A stretch of DNA of 64,000 nt from Caulobacter vibrioides (lineage in GTDB: Bacteria; Pseudomonadota; Alphaproteobacteria; Caulobacterales; Caulobacteraceae): contig LNIY01000076.1 in NCBI GenBank assembly GCA_001449105.1, positions 1-64,000 on the forward strand, read 5' to 3'. The translations under genes and the position numbers were made by a program. Positions 40,642-49,512 of the stretch are shown here, one piece after another; within the stretch, counting starts at the first letter, position 1; each line of letters starts with the position of its first letter. A model generated the notes under the pieces. It was not told where the DNA came from. It was given only the letters and a program-made list of their open reading frames with translations, and made no database searches.

Positions 40642-40995
40642 TTGTTCGTCTTTTGTTCTTGTCGCCGGACTGCCCGGCGGCGTCGAAGCCAAGGTGGCGG
40701 TTGGCTGCGACACTATCGGACGTTGTGCGCCGATCTTTCGATCCCCGAGGCGCGCTCCGCGCTGCACGGCGCTTGAGTCGCGGTCTCGTTCGCTCTGGAT
40801 CAAGTTCCTTGGTCCCACGCTGGGCGAAAGCCGCTCACCGAGGGGCAAATCGTGGGCGTCTCGAACATTTTGAGTGAAATTACAGATGCGCCGCCGGACG
40901 CCGGGAACGGGGCGAGGCGATGGTTTCTCCAAGAGGCGTCGCTCTGGGGATAACCGCCGAGGGCGGGAGTGCGACGGCTTCGAACGAGGACCGTC
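40642..40995. other. 354-bp divergent intergenic region
   Basis: It lies between the starts of the beta-helix gene and the TonB receptor and must hold both promoters. I see no convincing -35/-10 pair, palindromic operator or small gene. The receptor ATG has GAGGA at 40986-40990 as ribosome site. Confidence 0.6.
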
Positions 40996-43404
40996 ATGTC
41001 GAACCAAGGAATGCTGCTCGCGGGCTGTTCCGCCGCCGTTCTGCTCGCCCTGGCCGGCGCCGCCCACGCGGCCGAGCCGGATCCCGTCGCGACCGCGCCG
41101 GACGCCGTCGACGAGATCGTGGTGCGGGCCCGCGACAAGGCCGGGCTGATCGAGAAGGAACCCAACAACACCGTCTTCGGCCTCGACAAGCCGCTGATCG
41201 AAACGCCGCGCTCGGCCAGCTTCGTCTCGGACCTGACGCTGCAGCGCTACGGCATCGAGACCATCGACGGCCTGACGGCGGTGTCGCCGGGCACCTACAC
41301 CGCCAGCTTCTACGGCGTGCCCGGCGCGCTCAACATCCGCGGCACCCTGGCCGAGAACTACTTTCGCGGCTTCAAGCGCATCGAGAACCGCGGCACCTAC
41401 GCCACCCCGATCGGCGCGGCCGACCAGATCCAGATCGTGCGCGGCCCGCCGACCCCGATCTACGGCTCGGGCAAGGTGGGCGGCATGCTGAACTTCATTC
41501 CCAAATCCGGGAAGGGCGAGGGAGGCTACCTGTCGGAGACGCAGGGCGAGGTCACGGCGACCTACGGCAGCTACAACCGCAAGAACGCCACCGCCCAGGT
41601 CGGCCTGCCGGTGAACCTCGGCGAGGTCGTCGGCGGCGTCCATCTCTATGGCGAGGTCGAGGACAGCCACAGCTACTATCGTGGCATCTATCCGCGCCGG
41701 CAGACCCTGCAGGTCTCGTCCGACTTCGACCTGGGCAATGGCTGGAGCACCGCCGTCGGCGGCATGCTGTACCGCTCCAAGGGCGACGTGCAGACCCCGG
41801 GCTGGAACCGCCTGACCCAGGACCTGATCGACAACGGAACCTACATCACCGGCCGCGACACCAGCCTGGTCGACGCCGACGGCAACGGCCGCCTCACGCC
41901 CGGCGAGATCGGCTTCTATCCCTACGCCAGCGCCATGTACCTGGCCTACTACGGCTTTCCGACCACCGACGCCAAGCACACGCTGGACACCGGCGTCGGC
42001 ACGACCAAGCTGTCGCCGCGCACGGTCTACATCTCGGGCGCCGACTTCTCGAAGACCGAGACCAACACCCTCTATTTCGACGTCGCCAAGGAGCTGTCGC
42101 CCGACAGCTCGGTCAAGCTGCAGCTGTTCTACGACGCCCTGGAGAACAAGCGCTTCGTCTCCTACGGCTACCCGGCCTGGTTCGACAGCGACGTCTGGGA
42201 AGCCCGCCTGACCTGGAACTTCGCCAACGAGGCCTTCGACGGCCTGGTGAAGGCCAAGTCGTTCGTCGGCGCCTCCTATCGCAGCTTCGACGGCCGCCGG
42301 CGCGAAAGCTACAACAGCGGCCTGATCGCGCTGGATCGCCGCGACATCGCCTTCGGCCCCACCGCCACCGACCTCATCGGCAGCCCCTTCAACGCGGGCG
42401 ACGGCGTGGCGTGGGAGAACGACAACCGCTCCGAATGGACGCAAGGAGGCCTGTTCTTCACCACCGACATCATGGTCGGCGAGAAGCTGAACCTGATGCT
42501 GGGCGGCCGCTACGACGACTACGACGTCACGTCCGAGGACACCGGCTTTCTCTCGTACACCGTGGCCGGCGTGCAGAAGGCCTCGAAGGGCAAGGGCACC
42601 TACACCGCCAGCGCCACCTACAAGGCTCCGTTCGGCCTGATGCCCTACATCACCTACGCCAAGGCCAGCGCGCTGGAGATGAGCCAGGCCGGCGACATCG
42701 CGCCGGGCCTGGTGGCCGACGCGGGCGACGCCTGGCTGTCGGACGGCGACCTTGCCGAGGCCGGCGTCAAGTTCCAGTGGCTGCAGGGCACGCTGGTCGG
42801 CTCGCTGGCCGGCTATCGCCAGAACCGCACCCAGCTGACCGGCATCACCCAGACCCCGACCGGCACCCGCGCCAAGGGCGTCGAGCTTGAGGTCCGCTGG
42901 CTGGCCAGCGAGCACTTCAGCTTCACCTTCTCGGGCAACACCCAGCACACCACGGTGAAGGGGCCCGACACCTCGTTCCAGTACGTGCCGGTGCACACCG
43001 TCGGCGTCAGCGGGGCCAACGGCTTCGGCGGCTCGTACGTGGTGTGGAGCTTCGCCACCATCCGGCCGGGCGACTACGACTACACCCTGATCCCGAAATC
43101 GGTGGTCAGCCTGTACGGCGCCTACACCTCCGACGCCTACGACTGGGGCAAGGTCTCGGCCACGCTGGGCGTGACCCATGTGACCAAGACCTCGGGCACG
43201 GTTCCCAATGCGGTGGTCTATCCGGACTACGCGGTGGCCAGCGGCTCGGTGGCCTACGAGTACGGCCCGTACACGGCCACGCTCAACGTCGATAACCTGT
43301 TCGACAAGCTCTACTTCACGCCGGTCGGCGACACCTACGCCAACCTGGCCGCCCTGCCGTCCAAGGGCCGCGAGTGGCGCGTGACCCTGGCCCGGAAGTT
43401 CTAG
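40996..43404 (+). CDS. TonB-dependent outer membrane receptor
   Basis: 802 residues. Signal peptide at 1-28 (ending AHAAEP), a TonB-box-like segment DEIVVRAR near 40-47, plug domain to about 165 (TPRSASFVSDLTLQRYG, GALNIRGTLAENYF, IQIVRGPPTPIYGSGKVGG), then a 22-strand barrel ending in the outer-membrane signature WRVTLARKF with terminal Phe. First gene of the catabolic cluster to 49177; substrate unknown. Siderophore, vitamin and carbohydrate receptors share the fold, so the enzymes downstream are the best guide to the ligand. Confidence 0.95.
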   Translation: MSNQGMLLAGCSAAVLLALAGAAHAAEPDPVATAPDAVDEIVVRARDKAGLIEKEPNNTVFGLDKPLIETPRSASFVSDLTLQRYGIETIDGLTAVSPGTYTASFYGVPGALNIRGTLAENYFRGFKRIENRGTYATPIGAADQIQIVRGPPTPIYGSGKVGGMLNFIPKSGKGEGGYLSETQGEVTATYGSYNRKNATAQVGLPVNLGEVVGGVHLYGEVEDSHSYYRGIYPRRQTLQVSSDFDLGNGWSTAVGGMLYRSKGDVQTPGWNRLTQDLIDNGTYITGRDTSLVDADGNGRLTPGEIGFYPYASAMYLAYYGFPTTDAKHTLDTGVGTTKLSPRTVYISGADFSKTETNTLYFDVAKELSPDSSVKLQLFYDALENKRFVSYGYPAWFDSDVWEARLTWNFANEAFDGLVKAKSFVGASYRSFDGRRRESYNSGLIALDRRDIAFGPTATDLIGSPFNAGDGVAWENDNRSEWTQGGLFFTTDIMVGEKLNLMLGGRYDDYDVTSEDTGFLSYTVAGVQKASKGKGTYTASATYKAPFGLMPYITYAKASALEMSQAGDIAPGLVADAGDAWLSDGDLAEAGVKFQWLQGTLVGSLAGYRQNRTQLTGITQTPTGTRAKGVELEVRWLASEHFSFTFSGNTQHTTVKGPDTSFQYVPVHTVGVSGANGFGGSYVVWSFATIRPGDYDYTLIPKSVVSLYGAYTSDAYDWGKVSATLGVTHVTKTSGTVPNAVVYPDYAVASGSVAYEYGPYTATLNVDNLFDKLYFTPVGDTYANLAALPSKGREWRVTLARKF

Positions 43405-43412
43405 TTCCCCCT

Positions 43413-43442
43413 GCGGCGCGCCCGCTGCAACGGGCGCGTCGC
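43413..43442 (+). other. Intercistronic hairpin after the TonB receptor gene
   Basis: GCGCGCCCG, a CTGCAA loop and CGGGCGCG form a GC-rich stem in the 65-bp gap before the MFS gene. It lacks a T-run, so it may stabilise the receptor mRNA or lower downstream expression rather than end transcription. Confidence 0.45.
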
Positions 43443-43469
43443 CTCTTGCCTCTTGCAAGGAGCCTCGCC

Positions 43470-44765
43470 GTGTCGACCTCCCCCTGGCGTCCCTGGCTGA
43501 TCCTGTCGGTCTTCGCCCTGCTGCTGTTTCTGATCACCGCCTCGACCTTCTCGTCGCTGGGCGTGGTGCTGCCGGCGATGATCAAGGAGCAGGGCTGGGG
43601 CTTCGGTCCCGCCTTCCTGGGCTTCACCCTGCTGGGCGCCTTCTGCGGCGGCTCGTCGTGGCTGCCGGCCCTGCTGATCCGCAGGTTCGGCGTGCGGCTG
43701 ACCATCGTGGCCGGCTCGGCGGTGATGGTGGCGGGCTTTTCGTGCCTGGCCGCGACGCCGGGCCTGGCCGTCTACCTGGTCGGCACGGCCCTGCTGGGCG
43801 TCGGCTACCAGATGATGGCCCTGATCCCCGGCACCCACGTGCTGGGCATGCTGTTCAAGAAGCGGGCCCTTCCGTTCGGCATCTACTTCACCATCGGCTC
43901 GCTGGGCGGGGTGGTCGGACCCTGGATGGCGCTGTCGGGCATGGAGGTCGCCGGCGGCGCGTGGCGGCCCTACTGGTGGATGCAGGCGGCCGCCTCGCTG
44001 GTCGTTGGCCTGGTCTGCACCGTCCTGGTGGGCAGCAAGGCCTGGCTGGCCGCCGCCGCCGCCGAGACCGACAAGGCCGTGGCGCAGGAGATCGAGAACG
44101 CGCCCGCAAGCTCCAAGGTCTATCGCACCGCCATCGACTGGACCGTGAAGGAGGCCGTCCGCACCCCGCAGTTCTGGGTGATCCTGGCCGCCTATTTCGC
44201 CCACCTGCTGGGCGGCGTCACCGCCGTCAGCCTGGCGCCGAGCCACTTCGGCGAGCTGGGCGTGCCGGCCACGGTGGCCATCGCCGCGATCAGCCTGGAG
44301 TCGCTGATGCAGGTGGCCGCCCGGGCTGGCGGAGGCCTCGTGGGCGACCGCATCGACCCGCGCTGGCTGCTGGCGGGCGCGCAGGGGGTGATGGCCGTCG
44401 GCCTGCTGGCCCTGACCCACGCCACCAGCTGGCCGGTGATGATGGTGTTCGCCGTCGGGGTGGGGATCGGCTTTGGCATGACCGTGCTGGCCGTCAGCAT
44501 CCTGCTGCTCAACTACTACGGCCGGAAGAACAACCTCGAGCTCTTCTCGATGGTCTGCCTGGTCGGCGCGGTCTCGGCCCTGGGGCCGGTGATCGGCGGC
44601 TTGATGCGCGACCAGCTCGGCGGTTTTGCGCCCACCTTCCAGCTCTTCGCCGCGGTGATCGGCCTGATCTTCGTCGCCGCCCTGTTCATGCGCCCGCCGC
44701 GCAAGGCCGCCACGGCCGAACCCGTCGGCGAGCCCGTTCCCACCCTTCTGCAAGACGCCGCGTAA
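43470..44765 (+). CDS. MFS transporter
   Basis: 431 residues from GTG 43470, preceded by AAGGAG seven bases upstream. Twelve predicted membrane helices, with MFS loop motifs (LIRRFGVRLTI after helix 2, RAGGGLVGDRIDPRWLL after helix 8). It resembles the oxalate/formate antiporter-like or aromatic-acid branches used for organic-acid uptake. It sits between the receptor and the monooxygenase and presumably moves the substrate across the inner membrane. Confidence 0.92.
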   Translation: MSTSPWRPWLILSVFALLLFLITASTFSSLGVVLPAMIKEQGWGFGPAFLGFTLLGAFCGGSSWLPALLIRRFGVRLTIVAGSAVMVAGFSCLAATPGLAVYLVGTALLGVGYQMMALIPGTHVLGMLFKKRALPFGIYFTIGSLGGVVGPWMALSGMEVAGGAWRPYWWMQAAASLVVGLVCTVLVGSKAWLAAAAAETDKAVAQEIENAPASSKVYRTAIDWTVKEAVRTPQFWVILAAYFAHLLGGVTAVSLAPSHFGELGVPATVAIAAISLESLMQVAARAGGGLVGDRIDPRWLLAGAQGVMAVGLLALTHATSWPVMMVFAVGVGIGFGMTVLAVSILLLNYYGRKNNLELFSMVCLVGAVSALGPVIGGLMRDQLGGFAPTFQLFAAVIGLIFVAALFMRPPRKAATAEPVGEPVPTLLQDAA

Positions 44766-44780
44766 TCAAGGATGTCCGCC

Positions 44781-45845
44781 ATGTTCCACAGCCCTTCCAA
44801 GCACAAGGACTTCGGGGTGTTCCTGCCGGTGGCCAACGGCGGCTGGATCATCTCCAAGACCACGCCCGTCCTCGACGGCCTCTATGCGACCAACAAGGCC
44901 GCGGCGGTGAAGGCCGACGAGGTCGGCATGGACTTCGTCATGTCGATGGGCAAGTTCCGCGGCTTCGGCGGCGAGACCGACCACTGGGGCACGGCCCTGG
45001 AGTCCGTCACCATGATGGCCGGCATCGCCGAGGCCACCAAGAACGTCCGCATCTGGGCCACCATCCACCCGCTGCTGCAGAACCCGGCCGTGGCGGCCAA
45101 GATGATCGCCACGCTCGACCACATCAGCGGCGGCCGCGCCGGCCTCAACATCGTCGCCGGGGCCTATCGCGGCGAGTTCTCGCAGATGGGCGCCTGGGAC
45201 GACGCCCTGACCCACGACGACCGCTACGTCCTGACCGAGGAATGGACCAGGATCGTCAAGCGCCTGTGGAGCGAGGACAGCGTCGACTTCGACGGCAAGT
45301 TCTTCACGATGAAGGACTGCCAGTCCAAGCCCAAGCCGCTGAGCAAGCCGCGTCCGGAGCTGATCTGCGCGGGCATGAGCGACCGGGGCTTCCAGTTCTC
45401 GGTGCGCGAGGCCGACGTCTGCTTCATCGGCGGCCGCACGCCCGAAGAGCGCCGCGACGCCAGCCGCCGGGCCAAGATCGCCGCCGAGGGCATGGGCAAG
45501 ACCATCAAGACCTACGCCATGTGCACCGTCGTCCACGCCGAGAGCGACGCGGGCGCCGAGGCCCTGGTCCAGCGCTACAAGGGCGGGGCCGACATGGGCG
45601 CCATCCTGGCCATGCTGGAAAGCTGGGGCGTGCCGGCCGAGAAGCTGTCGACCGTCGCCGCCCAGCAGGGCGCGTTCATGACCCACACCGTGGTGGGCTC
45701 GCCCGCCACCTGCGCCGAGCAGGTGCAGGCCTTCGTCACCGACTGCGAGCTGGACGGGCTGATGCTGATCTTCCCCGACTACGTGGAAGGTCTGTCGATG
45801 TTCGGCTCGGAGATCCTGCCGGGCCTGCGCTCGGTGTTCTCGTGA
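44781..45845 (+). CDS. RutA-like LLM-class flavin monooxygenase
   Basis: About 354 residues from ATG 44781, which has AAGGAT seven bases upstream; ATG 44772 lies on top of that site. Luciferase-like (LLM) TIM barrel: FGVFLPVANGGWIISK, MSMGKFRGFGGETDHW, LDHISGGRAGLNIVAG and LICAGMSDRGFQFS parallel the equivalent blocks of pyrimidine monooxygenase RutA and its relatives. These enzymes use FMNH2 from a partner reductase (the RutF-like gene three downstream) to oxygenate and open N-heterocycles. It need not act on uracil. The stop overlaps the next start. Confidence 0.9.
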   Translation: MFHSPSKHKDFGVFLPVANGGWIISKTTPVLDGLYATNKAAAVKADEVGMDFVMSMGKFRGFGGETDHWGTALESVTMMAGIAEATKNVRIWATIHPLLQNPAVAAKMIATLDHISGGRAGLNIVAGAYRGEFSQMGAWDDALTHDDRYVLTEEWTRIVKRLWSEDSVDFDGKFFTMKDCQSKPKPLSKPRPELICAGMSDRGFQFSVREADVCFIGGRTPEERRDASRRAKIAAEGMGKTIKTYAMCTVVHAESDAGAEALVQRYKGGADMGAILAMLESWGVPAEKLSTVAAQQGAFMTHTVVGSPATCAEQVQAFVTDCELDGLMLIFPDYVEGLSMFGSEILPGLRSVFS

Positions 45846-46474
45846 GCGACTTTCCCGCCTGGATCGCGCCCGCGCGCACGGCCCTCGTGGTGATCGACAT
45901 CCAGGTCGACTTCGCCTCGCCGGAAGGCGTGCTGGGCGGCTACGGCGTCGACATGGGCATGGCGGCGCCGGCCGTGGACGCGGCGGCGGCGCTGGTGTCG
46001 GTCGCGCGCGCCGCCGGCGTGCCGGTGGTGTTCATCGGCCTGTTCACCGCGCCGGACACCGACAGCCGCGCCTGGAACGAGCGCATGCGCCGTCGCGGCG
46101 GCGATCCCGACAGCGAGGCGGCCCTGTGCCGCGCCGGCGCGCCGGGCAGCGCCTTCTACGGACCCCAGCCCGCCGCGGGTGAGCTGGTGGTGGCCAAGAC
46201 CCGCTACAGCGGCTTCGTCGGCACGGATCTGGACGCCCGCCTGAAGGCCATGGGCGTCGATACGCTTGTCGTCTGCGGCCTGACCACCGAGTGCTGCGTG
46301 GCGGCCACCGCCGCCGACGCCTTCGACCTCGACTACCACGTCTTCGTCGCCGCCGACGCCTGCGCGGCCTACGAGCCCGACCTGCACGAGGTCGCCCTGA
46401 AGACGATGGGGCTCAACACCGCGATCCTCACCGACAGCGTCGAGGTCGCCAAAGCCTGGAAGGAGGCCGCGTGA
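45842..46474 (+). CDS. Isochorismatase-family amidohydrolase (RutB-like)
   Basis: 210 residues from GTG 45842, overlapping the upstream TGA. Cysteine hydrolase with the family triad: Asp in VVIDIQVDF near 18, Lys in VVAKTRYSGF near 119 and Cys in GLTTECCVAATA near 155. RutB, biuret hydrolase and N-carbamoylsarcosine amidase belong here. Right after the flavin monooxygenase, it probably hydrolyses the opened, ureido- or amide-containing product. The stop overlaps the next ATG (TGATG). Confidence 0.9.
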   Translation: MSDFPAWIAPARTALVVIDIQVDFASPEGVLGGYGVDMGMAAPAVDAAAALVSVARAAGVPVVFIGLFTAPDTDSRAWNERMRRRGGDPDSEAALCRAGAPGSAFYGPQPAAGELVVAKTRYSGFVGTDLDARLKAMGVDTLVVCGLTTECCVAATAADAFDLDYHVFVAADACAAYEPDLHEVALKTMGLNTAILTDSVEVAKAWKEAA

Positions 46475-47859
46475 TGGCCGACGGGTTCGCCAACATCCCG
46501 GGCGCCGCCGCCCCCTACACGGTCACCGAAGCCGACCGCGCCGCCATCGCCGCCGCCATCAGCGAGAGCGAGATCGTCGAGCTGGCCCTGACGCTGGGCA
46601 ACATCCCGGCTCCCTCGGGCAAGGAGCTGGAGGTCGCGACCTACGTCTATGACTGGATGGCGCGCGAAGGCTTCTCGCCGCGCAAGGTCGGGGCGACGCC
46701 CGAGCGGCCCAACGTCATCGGCACGCACGGCGGCAAGGGTGTCGGCAAGAACCTGCTGTTCACCGCCCACCTCGATACCGAGGCGCCGACCTGGAACCCC
46801 GACCTCGACGCCTACAAGTACAGCCCCTCGACCCTGGCCAATCCCGAGTGGGAGAAGTGCTGGCTGGAGGACGGCAAGCTCTACGGCTATCCGATCGCCA
46901 ACGACCGCGGGCCGATGGCCTGTTTCCTGATCGCCGCCAAGGCGCTGAAGGCGGCCGGCTACGAGCTGGCCGGCAAGATGTACCTGACCGCCTGCCCCGG
47001 CGAGATCGGCCCCGAGCCGATCGAGGAGCATCGCGGCGTCGCCTACATGGGCAAGGACATCGGCGCCCACTACTTGTTCCACCACGGCGGCGTGGCCCCC
47101 GACTACGCCATCGCCGCCGAGGGCTGCGACTTCGGTCTGACCTGGGTGGGCTGCGGCTATGCGGTGTTCCGGATCACGGTGTGGGGCGAAGGGGTGTTCA
47201 CCCCGCTGCTCAGCCATCCGGCCAGCGCCGATCAGCACCCCAACCCCATCTACAGGCTGGGCAAGCTGACCGAGGCCATCCACGCCTGGAGCGGCGAGTG
47301 GGAGAAGGCCAGCCTCTATGAAAGCCCCGGCGGCACGGCCCAGCCGAAGTCGCAGCTGGCCTCGGTTCGCGGCGGCATTCCCTACGCCTTCGGCGCGGGC
47401 ACCGAGCGGGTGAACCTCTATCTGGAAGTGGGCCTCAATCCCCGCCAGCGCGTGGCCGACATCCAGCACTCGCTGGAGGCCATGGTGCGCAAGACCGGGA
47501 TCGCCGGGATCGAGATCGAGCCGGTGGTCGTGCGCCACGGCTTCGAGGCCGACGCCGTCGAGGTGGCCCCGCTGGTCGGGGCCGTGGACGTCGCCACCCA
47601 GCTGTCTCTGGGCCATCCGGTGGCCAAGGCCGCGCCGGTCTATTCCAGCATGTGGCGCGACCACAACGTCTTCAACATGCACCGCATCCCGGCCATCACC
47701 ACCGGCTTTTCCCGCTGGCGGCCGACGCCCAAGGACCTGGTCGACAGCGCCCTGGTCTACGCTCTGACGGCGCTCGCCGTCTGTGGCCGGGCCGAGACGG
47801 GCGAGGCGGCCAATCGCGCGCCGCCGGTCTATGGCGACAACCCGTTCGGGGGCGAGTGA
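46474..47859 (+). CDS. Atypical M20-family metallohydrolase-like protein
   Basis: 461 residues. M20 fold: zinc-site HLDTEAP near 95, an Asp in PIANDRGPMA near 146 and the downstream beta strands with DYAIAAEGCD near 212. Where active M20 enzymes have DEEIG (general-base Glu then ligand Glu), this protein reads CPGEIGPE, so the first Glu appears replaced by Gly. It may be inactive, use another base, or have changed chemistry. The usual dimerisation (lid) domain is present at about 225-370. Translation is coupled on both sides. Confidence 0.82.
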   Translation: MADGFANIPGAAAPYTVTEADRAAIAAAISESEIVELALTLGNIPAPSGKELEVATYVYDWMAREGFSPRKVGATPERPNVIGTHGGKGVGKNLLFTAHLDTEAPTWNPDLDAYKYSPSTLANPEWEKCWLEDGKLYGYPIANDRGPMACFLIAAKALKAAGYELAGKMYLTACPGEIGPEPIEEHRGVAYMGKDIGAHYLFHHGGVAPDYAIAAEGCDFGLTWVGCGYAVFRITVWGEGVFTPLLSHPASADQHPNPIYRLGKLTEAIHAWSGEWEKASLYESPGGTAQPKSQLASVRGGIPYAFGAGTERVNLYLEVGLNPRQRVADIQHSLEAMVRKTGIAGIEIEPVVVRHGFEADAVEVAPLVGAVDVATQLSLGHPVAKAAPVYSSMWRDHNVFNMHRIPAITTGFSRWRPTPKDLVDSALVYALTALAVCGRAETGEAANRAPPVYGDNPFGGE

Positions 47860-48353
47860 TGGGCGCGGCCCTGGCTTCCGAAGTCCCGGACACGGCCCTG
47901 TTCCGCAAGGCCATGGGCGGGTTCGCCGCCGGCGTGACGGTGGTGACCACCGCGCTCGACGGCCGGCTGTCGGGCACGACGGTCAGCGCGTTTTCGTCGC
48001 TGTCGATGGACCCGCCGCTGGTGCTGGCCTGCCTCAAGCGCGGCAGCCGCACGCTTTCGGCGGTGCGCGAGGCGGGGGTGTTCTGCGTCAACATCCTGGC
48101 CGCCGACCAGGGCGAGCTGGCCTACGCCTTCGCCAAGTCGGGCTGCGACGAGCGCTTCGCCCTGGCCGCCCTGGAGCCCGGCGCGACCGCCGCCCCCGTG
48201 CTGGCCGGCTGCGTGGCGGCGGTCGAGTGCGAGCTGCACGCCGCCCACGACGGCGGCGACCACGAGATCATCGTCGGGCGGGTCGCCAGCGTCCGTATAG
48301 ACGAAACCAAGCCGCCGCTCGTCTACGTGCGCGGCCAGTTCCTGAAAGCTTGA
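47859..48353 (+). CDS. Flavin reductase family protein (RutF-like)
   Basis: 164 residues from the ATG at 47859, overlapping the preceding stop. FRKAMGGFAAGVTVVTTALD at the N-terminus, SAFSSLSMDPPLVLACL and the terminal LVYVRGQFLKA are typical of NAD(P)H:FMN oxidoreductases that supply reduced flavin to LLM monooxygenases. Its presence in the same operon supports a two-component monooxygenase. Confidence 0.93.
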   Translation: MGAALASEVPDTALFRKAMGGFAAGVTVVTTALDGRLSGTTVSAFSSLSMDPPLVLACLKRGSRTLSAVREAGVFCVNILAADQGELAYAFAKSGCDERFALAALEPGATAAPVLAGCVAAVECELHAAHDGGDHEIIVGRVASVRIDETKPPLVYVRGQFLKA

Positions 48354-48364
48354 GAGAAGTCCCG

Positions 48365-49177
48365 ATGGCCTACGACGTGCTGGAAGTGAAGCCGATGACC
48401 CGCCGGATCGGCGCCGAGGTGTTCGGCGTCGACCTGGGCCAGCCGCTGTCGAACCGGCAGTTCGAGGAGCTGCACCAGGCCCTGACCCAGTACCAGGTGC
48501 TGTTCTTCCGCGACCAGCAGATGACCCACGACGCCCACAAGGCGCTGGGCCGCAAGTTCGGGGCGCTGGCGATCCATTCGGGCGTGCCGGGCCTGGCTGA
48601 TCATCCCGAGGTCGTCGCCATCCACGCCGACGAGAACTCGAAATTCGTGGCCGGCGAGAGCTGGCACTCGGACCTGACCTGCGACCCCGAGCCGCCGCTG
48701 GGCAGCATCCTGCACATGCCCATCGTGCCCGCCGACGGCGGCGACACCGTCTTCGCCAGCATGTACGCCGCCTACGACACCCTGTCGGACCGGATGAAGG
48801 CCTATCTGGAGGGCCTGACCGCCGTGCACGACGCCAACCCGATCTACAAGGCGCTCTTCCCCGACATCGACCGCACCTACAACTGCACCGCCCATCCGGT
48901 GGTGCGCACCCATCCGGTGAGCGGCCGCAAGAGCCTGTTCGTCAACCCGTCCTACACCACTCACATCGTGGGCCTGCCCAAGGCCGAGAGCGCGGCGATC
49001 CTGGGCTATCTCTACCACCACGCCGGCAATCCGGACTTCCAGGTGCGCTTCCGTTGGCGGAAGAACTCGGTGGCCTTCTGGGACAACCGCTGCACCTGGC
49101 ACCAGGCGATCTGGGACTATTTCCCGGACGTCCGCTCGGGCTTCCGCGTGACGATCGCGGGCGATAGGCCGGTGTGA
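48365..49177 (+). CDS. TauD/TfdA-type Fe(II)/2-oxoglutarate dioxygenase
   Basis: 270 residues from the ATG at 48365. Double-stranded beta-helix dioxygenase: iron ligands His and Asp in WHSDLTCD near 100-102, distal His in CTWHQAIWDYF near 245, and the 2-oxoglutarate arginine in SGFRVTI near 260. The N-terminus PMTRRIGAEVFGVDLGQPL is typical of TauD. These enzymes cleave C-S, C-O or C-N bonds by hydroxylation, so it may remove a side group before or after ring opening. Last gene of the cluster. Confidence 0.94.
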   Translation: MAYDVLEVKPMTRRIGAEVFGVDLGQPLSNRQFEELHQALTQYQVLFFRDQQMTHDAHKALGRKFGALAIHSGVPGLADHPEVVAIHADENSKFVAGESWHSDLTCDPEPPLGSILHMPIVPADGGDTVFASMYAAYDTLSDRMKAYLEGLTAVHDANPIYKALFPDIDRTYNCTAHPVVRTHPVSGRKSLFVNPSYTTHIVGLPKAESAAILGYLYHHAGNPDFQVRFRWRKNSVAFWDNRCTWHQAIWDYFPDVRSGFRVTIAGDRPV

Positions 49178-49182
49178 GATTT

Positions 49183-49503
49183 CCCTCTCTCTAAGAGAGA
49201 GGGGCCCACGCCGAAAGGCGTGGGAGGGTGAGTGGGTACGAACTCACCGAAAGAGGTGCGGACCAAAACCCATCGTCATCCCGGAAAGCGCAGCGCTTAT
49301 CCGGGACCCAGGGAGACTGGGCGCCGTGGTGCGTCTAGGCTGTCTTGAACGCTTCGTCGGCGGCCCCTGGGTCCGGCTCTTCGCTTCGCTGCGGCCGGGA
49401 TGACGGCCTAGGGTGAGAGCGAGGGAGTCTTTCGGTCAACCGTGAAACCTCTCACCCTCCCACCGCTGCGCGCCGGGCCCCTCCCTCTCTCAAAGAGAGA
49501 GGG
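49183..49503. repeat. Composite repeat: family C element with a family B element inside
   Basis: The outer arms are of family C (CCCTCTCTCTAAGAGAGAGG at the left, CTCTCTCAAAGAGAGAGGG at the right). Between them, 49274-49405 is a full family B unit (CGTCATCCCGG to CCGGGATGACG). The family C copy at 28084 has only about 60 bp in the corresponding place. The element fills the whole gap between the convergent dioxygenase and enoyl-CoA hydratase genes; no gene is seen in it. Confidence 0.85.
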
Positions 49504-49512
49504 TCTCAAACT

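Follow-up and report, generated by a model that had tools for sequence, protein, structure and literature searches.

A seven-gene operon of Caulobacter vibrioides with a conserved three-gene core: a candidate system for removing a fused pyrimidine ring

Gene content and conserved core

The window analysed here is a 64,000-nucleotide stretch of the Caulobacter vibrioides genome (assembly GCA_001449105.1, contig LNIY01000076.1, positions 1 to 64,000 of the forward strand; contig C76 in a genome of 5.32 Mb over 160 contigs). It carries a candidate catabolic operon at positions 40996–49177, which an earlier note, made from the sequence alone, had described as seven genes in a row with overlapping stops and starts. 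All seven lie on the + strand and their open reading frames are intact on translation. Three of the six junctions overlap, by 4 bases between the monooxygenase and hydrolase genes and by 1 base each between the hydrolase and M20 genes and between the M20 and reductase genes; at the others, the receptor stop (43404) precedes the transporter start (43470), the transporter stop (44765) the monooxygenase start (44772) and the reductase stop (48353) the TauD start (48365). Among the relatives returned for this locus, the nearest named ones are Caulobacter species, with 94–97% identity in the M20 protein.

The first gene encodes a TonB-dependent outer-membrane receptor of 802 amino acids (40996..43404; Pfam TonB_dep_Rec_b-barrel and Plug), the second an MFS transporter of 431 amino acids with a GTG start (43470..44765; Pfam MFS_1) and the third a RutA-like monooxygenase of the luciferase-like (LLM) class, 357 amino acids long and proposed to open a ring (44772..45845; Pfam Bac_luciferase; 39% identity to Escherichia coli RutA). 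Next come a hydrolase of 210 amino acids, again with a GTG start and proposed to remove a carbamoyl group (45842..46474), an M20-type hydrolase of 461 amino acids akin to 5-nitroanthranilate aminohydrolase and proposed to carry out ortho-amino deamination (46474..47859), a flavin reductase of 164 amino acids that would supply reduced flavin mononucleotide, FMNH2 (47859..48353; Pfam Flavin_Reduct), and a TauD-family Fe(II)/2-oxoglutarate dioxygenase of 270 amino acids (48365..49177; Pfam TauD). Pfam agrees with the names already given to the receptor, transporter, monooxygenase, reductase and dioxygenase; the protein called an amidohydrolase is a hydrolase, but more precisely a RutB/BiuH-like cysteine hydrolase of the isochorismatase family (Pfam Isochorismatase). 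About 200 bases 5' of the receptor start, on the + strand, a weight matrix matched a putative AraC-type operator (40783..40809, with a 19-base core at 40786–40804). In the intergenic region 3' of the operon (49180–49510), inverted copies of a AGAGAGAG/GGGCCC-type sequence can be seen by eye and possibly represent a repeat element.

Six short peptide patterns taken from the M20 protein were used to scan 84,980 species, each represented by one genome, a procedure that favours close relatives. It returned 74 loci, most of them alphaproteobacterial and chiefly from Caulobacteraceae and sphingomonads, with others from Hyphomonas, Nitrospirillum, one Alteromonas and one Paraburkholderia. The LLM gene was found in 72 of them and the hydrolase gene in 73; at one locus (L060) the M20 gene starts 671 bases from the contig end, and at another (L039) the LLM gene is truncated by the contig start. 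Sixty-two loci span at least 20 kb (22 from other Caulobacteraceae, 34 from other families and six from the window's own clade), and LLM, hydrolase and M20 occur together in every one, so the three genes are not scattered among genomes, a point that the earlier note had singled out for checking. Likewise, the three plasmid records with a close M20 relative all hold the LLM and the hydrolase, two of them in the compact order MFS–LLM–hydrolase–M20–reductase followed downstream by a helix-turn-helix gene. Few of the sampled genomes have the M20 gene, three of 385 for the class and two of 398 for the phylum, this genome included in both; LLM-like matches occurred in 28 of the 398, 25 of these at only 36–40% identity. 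The LLM–hydrolase–M20 core is a real conserved unit, well beyond chance. A TauD of the window type was found in 24 of the 34 loci of other families.

A paralogous LLM–isochorismatase–M20 set lies in Caulobacter sp. Root343 (L043, 8271–13836), beside a gene with DinB, FGE and histidine methyltransferase domains (EgtB/EgtD- or OvoA-like).

The core enzymes and their relatives

RutA was the best solved relative of the LLM in a search of PDB sequences (228 bits; 132 of 336 aligned residues identical to the E. coli protein), and the RutA model TIGR03612 was its best NCBIfam model, at 269.9 bits under a cut-off of 498.3. RutA opens uracil at N3–C4 (PMC10005588); O2 is held by Thr105 and Asn134 in a pocket lined by Val136, Leu65 and Phe224 (PMC7662398, PMC10005588), and Trp139 borders the solvent-accessible si-side cavity (PMC10005588). 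The window LLM keeps T105, N134, V136 and F224, with Met in place of Leu65, and these four residues are kept in all 69 M20-linked LLMs read from the 74 loci. At the position of Trp139, the window LLM has Ala and the 69 have Ala or Ser; Trp is kept in all four RutA sequences aligned, one of which (L006) is from this genome, and in another LLM (L007).

A tree of 27 rows (nine M20-linked LLMs, seven RutA, three of the RidA/RutD type, six SfnG and two other LLMs of this genome), for which the program warned of long branches, places the M20-linked LLMs in their own clade (support 95/98), separate from the RutA clade (100/100). The RidA/RutD type (99/99) joins these two in a RutA-like group (89/88), outside which fall SfnG (100/99) and the two other LLMs of this genome. 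The RidA/RutD type goes with the M20-linked clade in this tree (81/76) and with RutA in two others (95/80; 96/97), and a grouping of the M20-linked LLMs with RutA is not rejected (p-AU 0.131). The window LLM belongs to a clade of its own, next to RutA but not within RutA proper, and which of the three RutA-like groups lies nearest varies by tree. It does not cluster with any non-ring-opening family of known substrate, the outcome that would have spoken against the earlier reading. In a tree of 50 rows, four LLMs without a nearby M20 gene fall among the M20-linked ones.

In sharing an LLM monooxygenase, a flavin reductase, an isochorismatase-type hydrolase and the O2-pocket residues, the set resembles the Rut system of E. 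coli (RutA–RutF). It differs in that all three enzymes score under the Rut cut-offs (90.8 of 377.95 bits for the hydrolase with the RutB model, the biuret amidohydrolase model also being far under its own; 102.9 of 254.75 for the reductase with the RutF model), in the replacement of Trp139, in its separate LLM clade and in the addition of an M20 aminohydrolase-like enzyme, a TonB receptor and a TauD protein. RutC and RutD were found at none of the 62 loci of at least 20 kb, nor by Pfam among the seven window genes. We rejected a canonical Rut system on the scores, the missing RutC and RutD and the LLM clade, and the gene set is distinct from Rut, as had been proposed.

An organosulfur system, pairing an SfnG-like dimethylsulfone monooxygenase with a taurine-dioxygenase-like TauD, is suggested by the model rankings: among NCBIfam models, TauD matches taurine dioxygenase (NF007104) best, and the LLM matches SfnG (TIGR04021) second best. 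Both scores are under the cut-offs (174.9 of 382.95 and 266.6 of 313 bits), the six SfnG rows form a clade away from the window LLM, subject to the long-branch warning, and the carbamoyl-type hydrolase and the aminohydrolase-like enzyme would have no role. Organosulfur oxidation, which we regard as very improbable, was rejected on the separate position of SfnG. Motif residues that we take to be catalytic never vary in the alignments: D, K and C in all 74 rows for the hydrolase, and H, D, H and R in all 59 for TauD.

The M20 protein had no Pfam match at E 0.001, and its NCBIfam M20-type matches were far under cut-off. At 1e-3 it matched only two PDB sequences, both 5-nitroanthranilic acid aminohydrolase, the better (5k8p, from Bradyrhizobium) with 300 bits over residues 34–440. 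Of 128 window positions at least 97% conserved in an 82-row alignment of the M20 clade, 78 are identical in the aminohydrolase and 50 are not; the GE and SMWRD motifs are common to both, and Asn-Asp of the window protein corresponds to Asn-Cys in the aminohydrolase. A permissive plasmid search gave, among the matches listed (40 of 81 records), three close relatives (336–521 bits) and 37 at no more than 64 bits. By its sequence, the M20 protein belongs with 5-nitroanthranilate aminohydrolase, and a generic M20 peptidase was rejected on the contrast between 300 bits and at most 64 for those 37. The aminohydrolase removes an amino group by hydrolysis, converting 5-nitroanthranilate, an ortho-amino carboxylate, to 5-nitrosalicylate (PMC10306065). 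This kinship suggests hydrolysis of an ortho-amino aryl carboxylate as the activity of the window protein.

In another reading, the ring opened by the LLM is that of a monocyclic heterocycle (a modified uracil, a hydantoin or some other cyclic amide), and the M20 protein hydrolyses amides or N-carbamoyl groups in the ordinary way. Most M20 enzymes act on amides, the HLD, ND, GE and AE motifs are at what we take to be the places of M20 metal ligands, and the plasmid LLMs of the RidA/RutD type with Ser139 sit in Rut-like operons. However, the protein shares with the aminohydrolase both SMWRD and GE, the latter at a place where ordinary M20 enzymes presumably carry two acidic residues; the other plasmid M20 proteins among the matches listed reach no more than 64 bits, against 300; and this genome already has a RutA-clade gene (L006/L098). 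We consider a monocycle quite unlikely. The distinct nitrogen-containing heterocycle proposed earlier fits the gene set, but the M20 kinship would point to a ring-fused pyrimidine rather than to an alkylated monocycle.

Related gene sets were seen elsewhere. Contig C14 of this genome (L097, 1522–6960) has a second set of TonB receptor, MFS, LLM (71%) and isochorismatase genes, without M20 or operator, which adjoins a RES/Xre pair resembling a toxin–antitoxin system. In Hyphomonas (L046, L084), each cluster has two M20 genes of the window type, the second after the LLM gene. Plasmids of Rhizobium, Pantoea and Paracoccaceae (L090, L092, L093) carry RutA-like LLM operons with ABC transporters of the BMP- or purine-binding type and Rid-family and alpha/beta-hydrolase genes; L090 and L093 add TenA and an amidohydrolase or formyl-aminopyrimidine deformylase, perhaps a thiamin pyrimidine route. 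Plasmid pENH92 of Cupriavidus necator NH9 (L091) has flavin reductase, LLM, RidA and alpha/beta-hydrolase genes followed by genes for an ABC transporter, a VanB-type reductase, a Rieske-type oxygenase and formaldehyde dehydrogenase; together they are candidates for a route that handles an N-methylated pyrimidine.

A second gene block and a putative shared operator

The core genes have recurrent neighbours in other genomes: a Rieske oxygenase, a YgiD/LigB-type dioxygenase, an FmdA/AmdA amidase, a second TauD (TauD2), an AraC regulator, a VOC protein and an SDR. All of these except the SDR are each present in 19 of the 22 loci of other Caulobacteraceae; at the three exceptions (L036, L043 and L044), only LLM, hydrolase and M20 were found of the genes sought, with an SDR in one. 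Among the 34 loci of other families, the LigB type occurs in 21, the amidase in 31, AraC in 32 and VOC in 22. A ribokinase-type gene (250.6 bits under a cut-off of 299.65) accompanies 26 of these 34, which would fit a substrate that yields ribose. The absence of a regulator noted earlier holds for the window; an AraC-type regulator nevertheless accompanies the set in 51 of the 62 loci.

At the six loci of the window's own clade, TauD2, the LigB type, the amidase, AraC and VOC were never adjacent, and one Rieske-type match was found. In this genome, the Rieske, LigB/YgiD-type, amidase, TauD2 and AraC genes lie on contig C158, with 79–91% identity to those of relatives, and the VOC gene on contig C21 (81%). 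The C158 LigB-type enzyme scores 323 bits with the NCBIfam model for 4,5-DOPA extradiol dioxygenase, above the cut-off of 233. The seven window genes look like the first half only, with the second block going with them. A sphingomonad locus (L056, 10687–13002) and its relatives show an unusual fusion of an AraC-type regulator to an FmdA/AmdA amidase domain (771 amino acids in the one scanned).

A motif, TCGTGCGCGYTGRNGCAAGACCG, is conserved in the TauD2/Rieske intergenic region of other Caulobacteraceae, and a second copy in inverted orientation is often present. We first saw its consensus in the two sites of this genome; in other genomes, at least 14 of its 17 positions are matched in 23 of 23 TauD2/Rieske regions and in 21 of 32 receptor-upstream regions, against at most 13 in shuffled sequences. 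A weight matrix built from the 23 intergenic sites, none from this genome, ranks 40783–40809 first among all sites on either strand of the window (5.1, the next being 2.1); with this matrix, the receptor site of L025 comes third and the one of L018 is not in the top four. This genome has two exact copies of the 19-base pattern, one at the window site and one at C158:1256. With up to two mismatches there are 15 sites, against 12 for the reversed control, so that only the two exact sites carry weight. Promoter pairs compared by their best 22-base match (14 of 22 pairs) gave values of 15–19, not above those of shuffles (14–18), and the pair of this genome gave 17 against 15, 18 and 18; no such site accompanies the second copy of the LLM gene, on C14. 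Short of proof, these matches are suggestive of an AraC-type operator that the window operon and the C158 block perhaps share, in which case the two would be co-regulated.

Proposed pathway and possible substrates

The reactions and substrates given here are ones that we infer from the genes. The substrate would cross the outer membrane through the TonB receptor and the inner membrane through the MFS transporter. The LLM, with FMNH2 from the reductase, would then oxidatively open a fused uracil-type ring at an amide, leaving a ureido group ortho to a carboxylate. From this the RutB/BiuH-like hydrolase would take off the carbamoyl group to give a ring amine; RutB itself is named ureidoacrylate amidohydrolase in the PDB. 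If the opened ring was fused to an aromatic one, the second product would be an ortho-amino aryl carboxylate, the kind of compound handled by aminohydrolases of the 5-nitroanthranilate type. The M20 enzyme would swap this amine for a hydroxyl, standing in for RutC, the 3-aminoacrylate deaminase (PMC8113886) that acts on the non-aromatic amine of the uracil pathway. Finally, TauD and the Rieske, extradiol-type, amidase and TauD2 block, probably co-regulated, would break the remaining ring. This three-step removal of a uracil-type ring fused to another ring, with alloxazines and flavins such as riboflavin and lumichrome as leading substrates, is our tentative preference, held with somewhat less than even confidence.

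The proposed order of steps has a counterpart in the lumichrome pathway of Nocardioides simplex, published in 2025, with a commentary (PMC12752717). The paper shows that LumH, LumI and LumM convert 7-carboxylumichrome by opening its ring, hydrolysing the urea and replacing the amine of an aminoquinoxaline carboxylate by hydroxyl; decarboxylation and xanthine oxidase, Rieske and extradiol steps come next (PMC12746152). Its main text does not mention M20, isochorismatase or RutA. The likeness lies in reaction order and protein mass: the window hydrolase is of 21.6 kDa and LumI of 24, the window M20 protein of 49.3 kDa and LumM of 52. Ring opening differs, being proposed here as oxidative, by the LLM, and carried out there by the 80 kDa hydrolase LumH. 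According to the same source, LumH is reversible, with no more than 40% conversion, and variants of the pathway may exist (PMC12746152); oxidative opening would avoid the limit set by reversibility.

A more specific version is that the window operon and the C158 block encode a proteobacterial flavin-degradation pathway of the kind attributed to Pseudomonas RF, which we hold to be somewhat unlikely. The RutA-like enzyme would open the pyrimidine ring of isoalloxazine or alloxazine with oxygen, the aminohydrolase-type enzyme would deaminate the quinoxaline, TauD would free ribose or decarboxylate, and the Rieske, extradiol and amidase enzymes would finish the dimethylbenzene and oxamide parts. 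The Rieske, extradiol, amidase, SDR and ribokinase genes would match the intermediates of the Pseudomonas RF route (quinoxaline dione, ribose, pyrone and oxamide), although the paper gives urea as a product of that route (PMC12746152).

The same three steps could instead act on a fused substrate other than a flavin: a pterin or lumazine, a purine or 7-deazapurine nucleoside, a quinazolinedione or a deazaflavin. In nine of the 34 loci of other families there is an amidohydrolase with 5'-deoxyadenosine and 8-oxoguanine deaminases among its best models (under cut-off), and with the ribokinase type (26 of 34) and the FmdA amidase (31 of 34) it could be compatible with a nucleoside or pterin that is deaminated and gives off ribose and formamide. 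Against this, a carbocyclic aromatic ring is indicated by the two dioxygenases, the Rieske and the YgiD/LigB type (each in 21 of the 34 loci and in 19 of the 22 from other Caulobacteraceae), and neither purines nor pterins contain such a ring. We judge a non-flavin substrate to be unlikely.

Several observations weigh against the removal of a fused ring by the whole gene set, or against flavins as its substrate. Rfam gave no match in the window and a single tRNA across seven other loci, hence no flavin riboswitch. No P450, thiamin pyrophosphate (TPP) decarboxylase or xanthine oxidase is among the annotated neighbours, not every neighbour being annotated, so the route would differ from that of the Lum enzymes. 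The Rieske gene is missing from 13 of the 34 loci of other families, where a local flavin reductase was found in only three and a receptor of the window type in two, and the ribokinase type is in just four of the 22 loci of other Caulobacteraceae (this genome was not searched for it). The LLM occurs without a nearby M20 gene on C14 of this genome, as a second copy in genome G700, in genome G651 and on plasmid pSA1. The O2-pocket residues are present in a distant LLM of this genome (L005) and thus support the family only, not the substrate; Ser139 is found in the RidA/RutD-type plasmid LLMs, so that loss of Trp139 is not specific to the seven-gene set. As to the operator, 11 of the 32 receptor-upstream regions of relatives lack the site, including Phenylobacterium and Hyphomonas loci, L024 and L138, and the matrix score of the window site is weak (5.1, against 43.5 for the C158 site).

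We found no description of this gene set in the open-access literature searched. It recurs in Caulobacter, sphingomonads and other bacteria, and in three plasmid records, and some of the Caulobacter species have names (zeae, radicis and endophyticus, for example) that hint at a link with plants. Removal of a fused uracil-type ring as proposed would give a three-enzyme logic for taking the pyrimidine ring off a fused system. If the substrate is indeed a flavin, these would be genes for a route whose strain, Pseudomonas RF, was not preserved (PMC12746152). The pathway would then also provide a Gram-negative sink for lumichrome, described in the same paper as a rhizosphere signal (PMC12746152).

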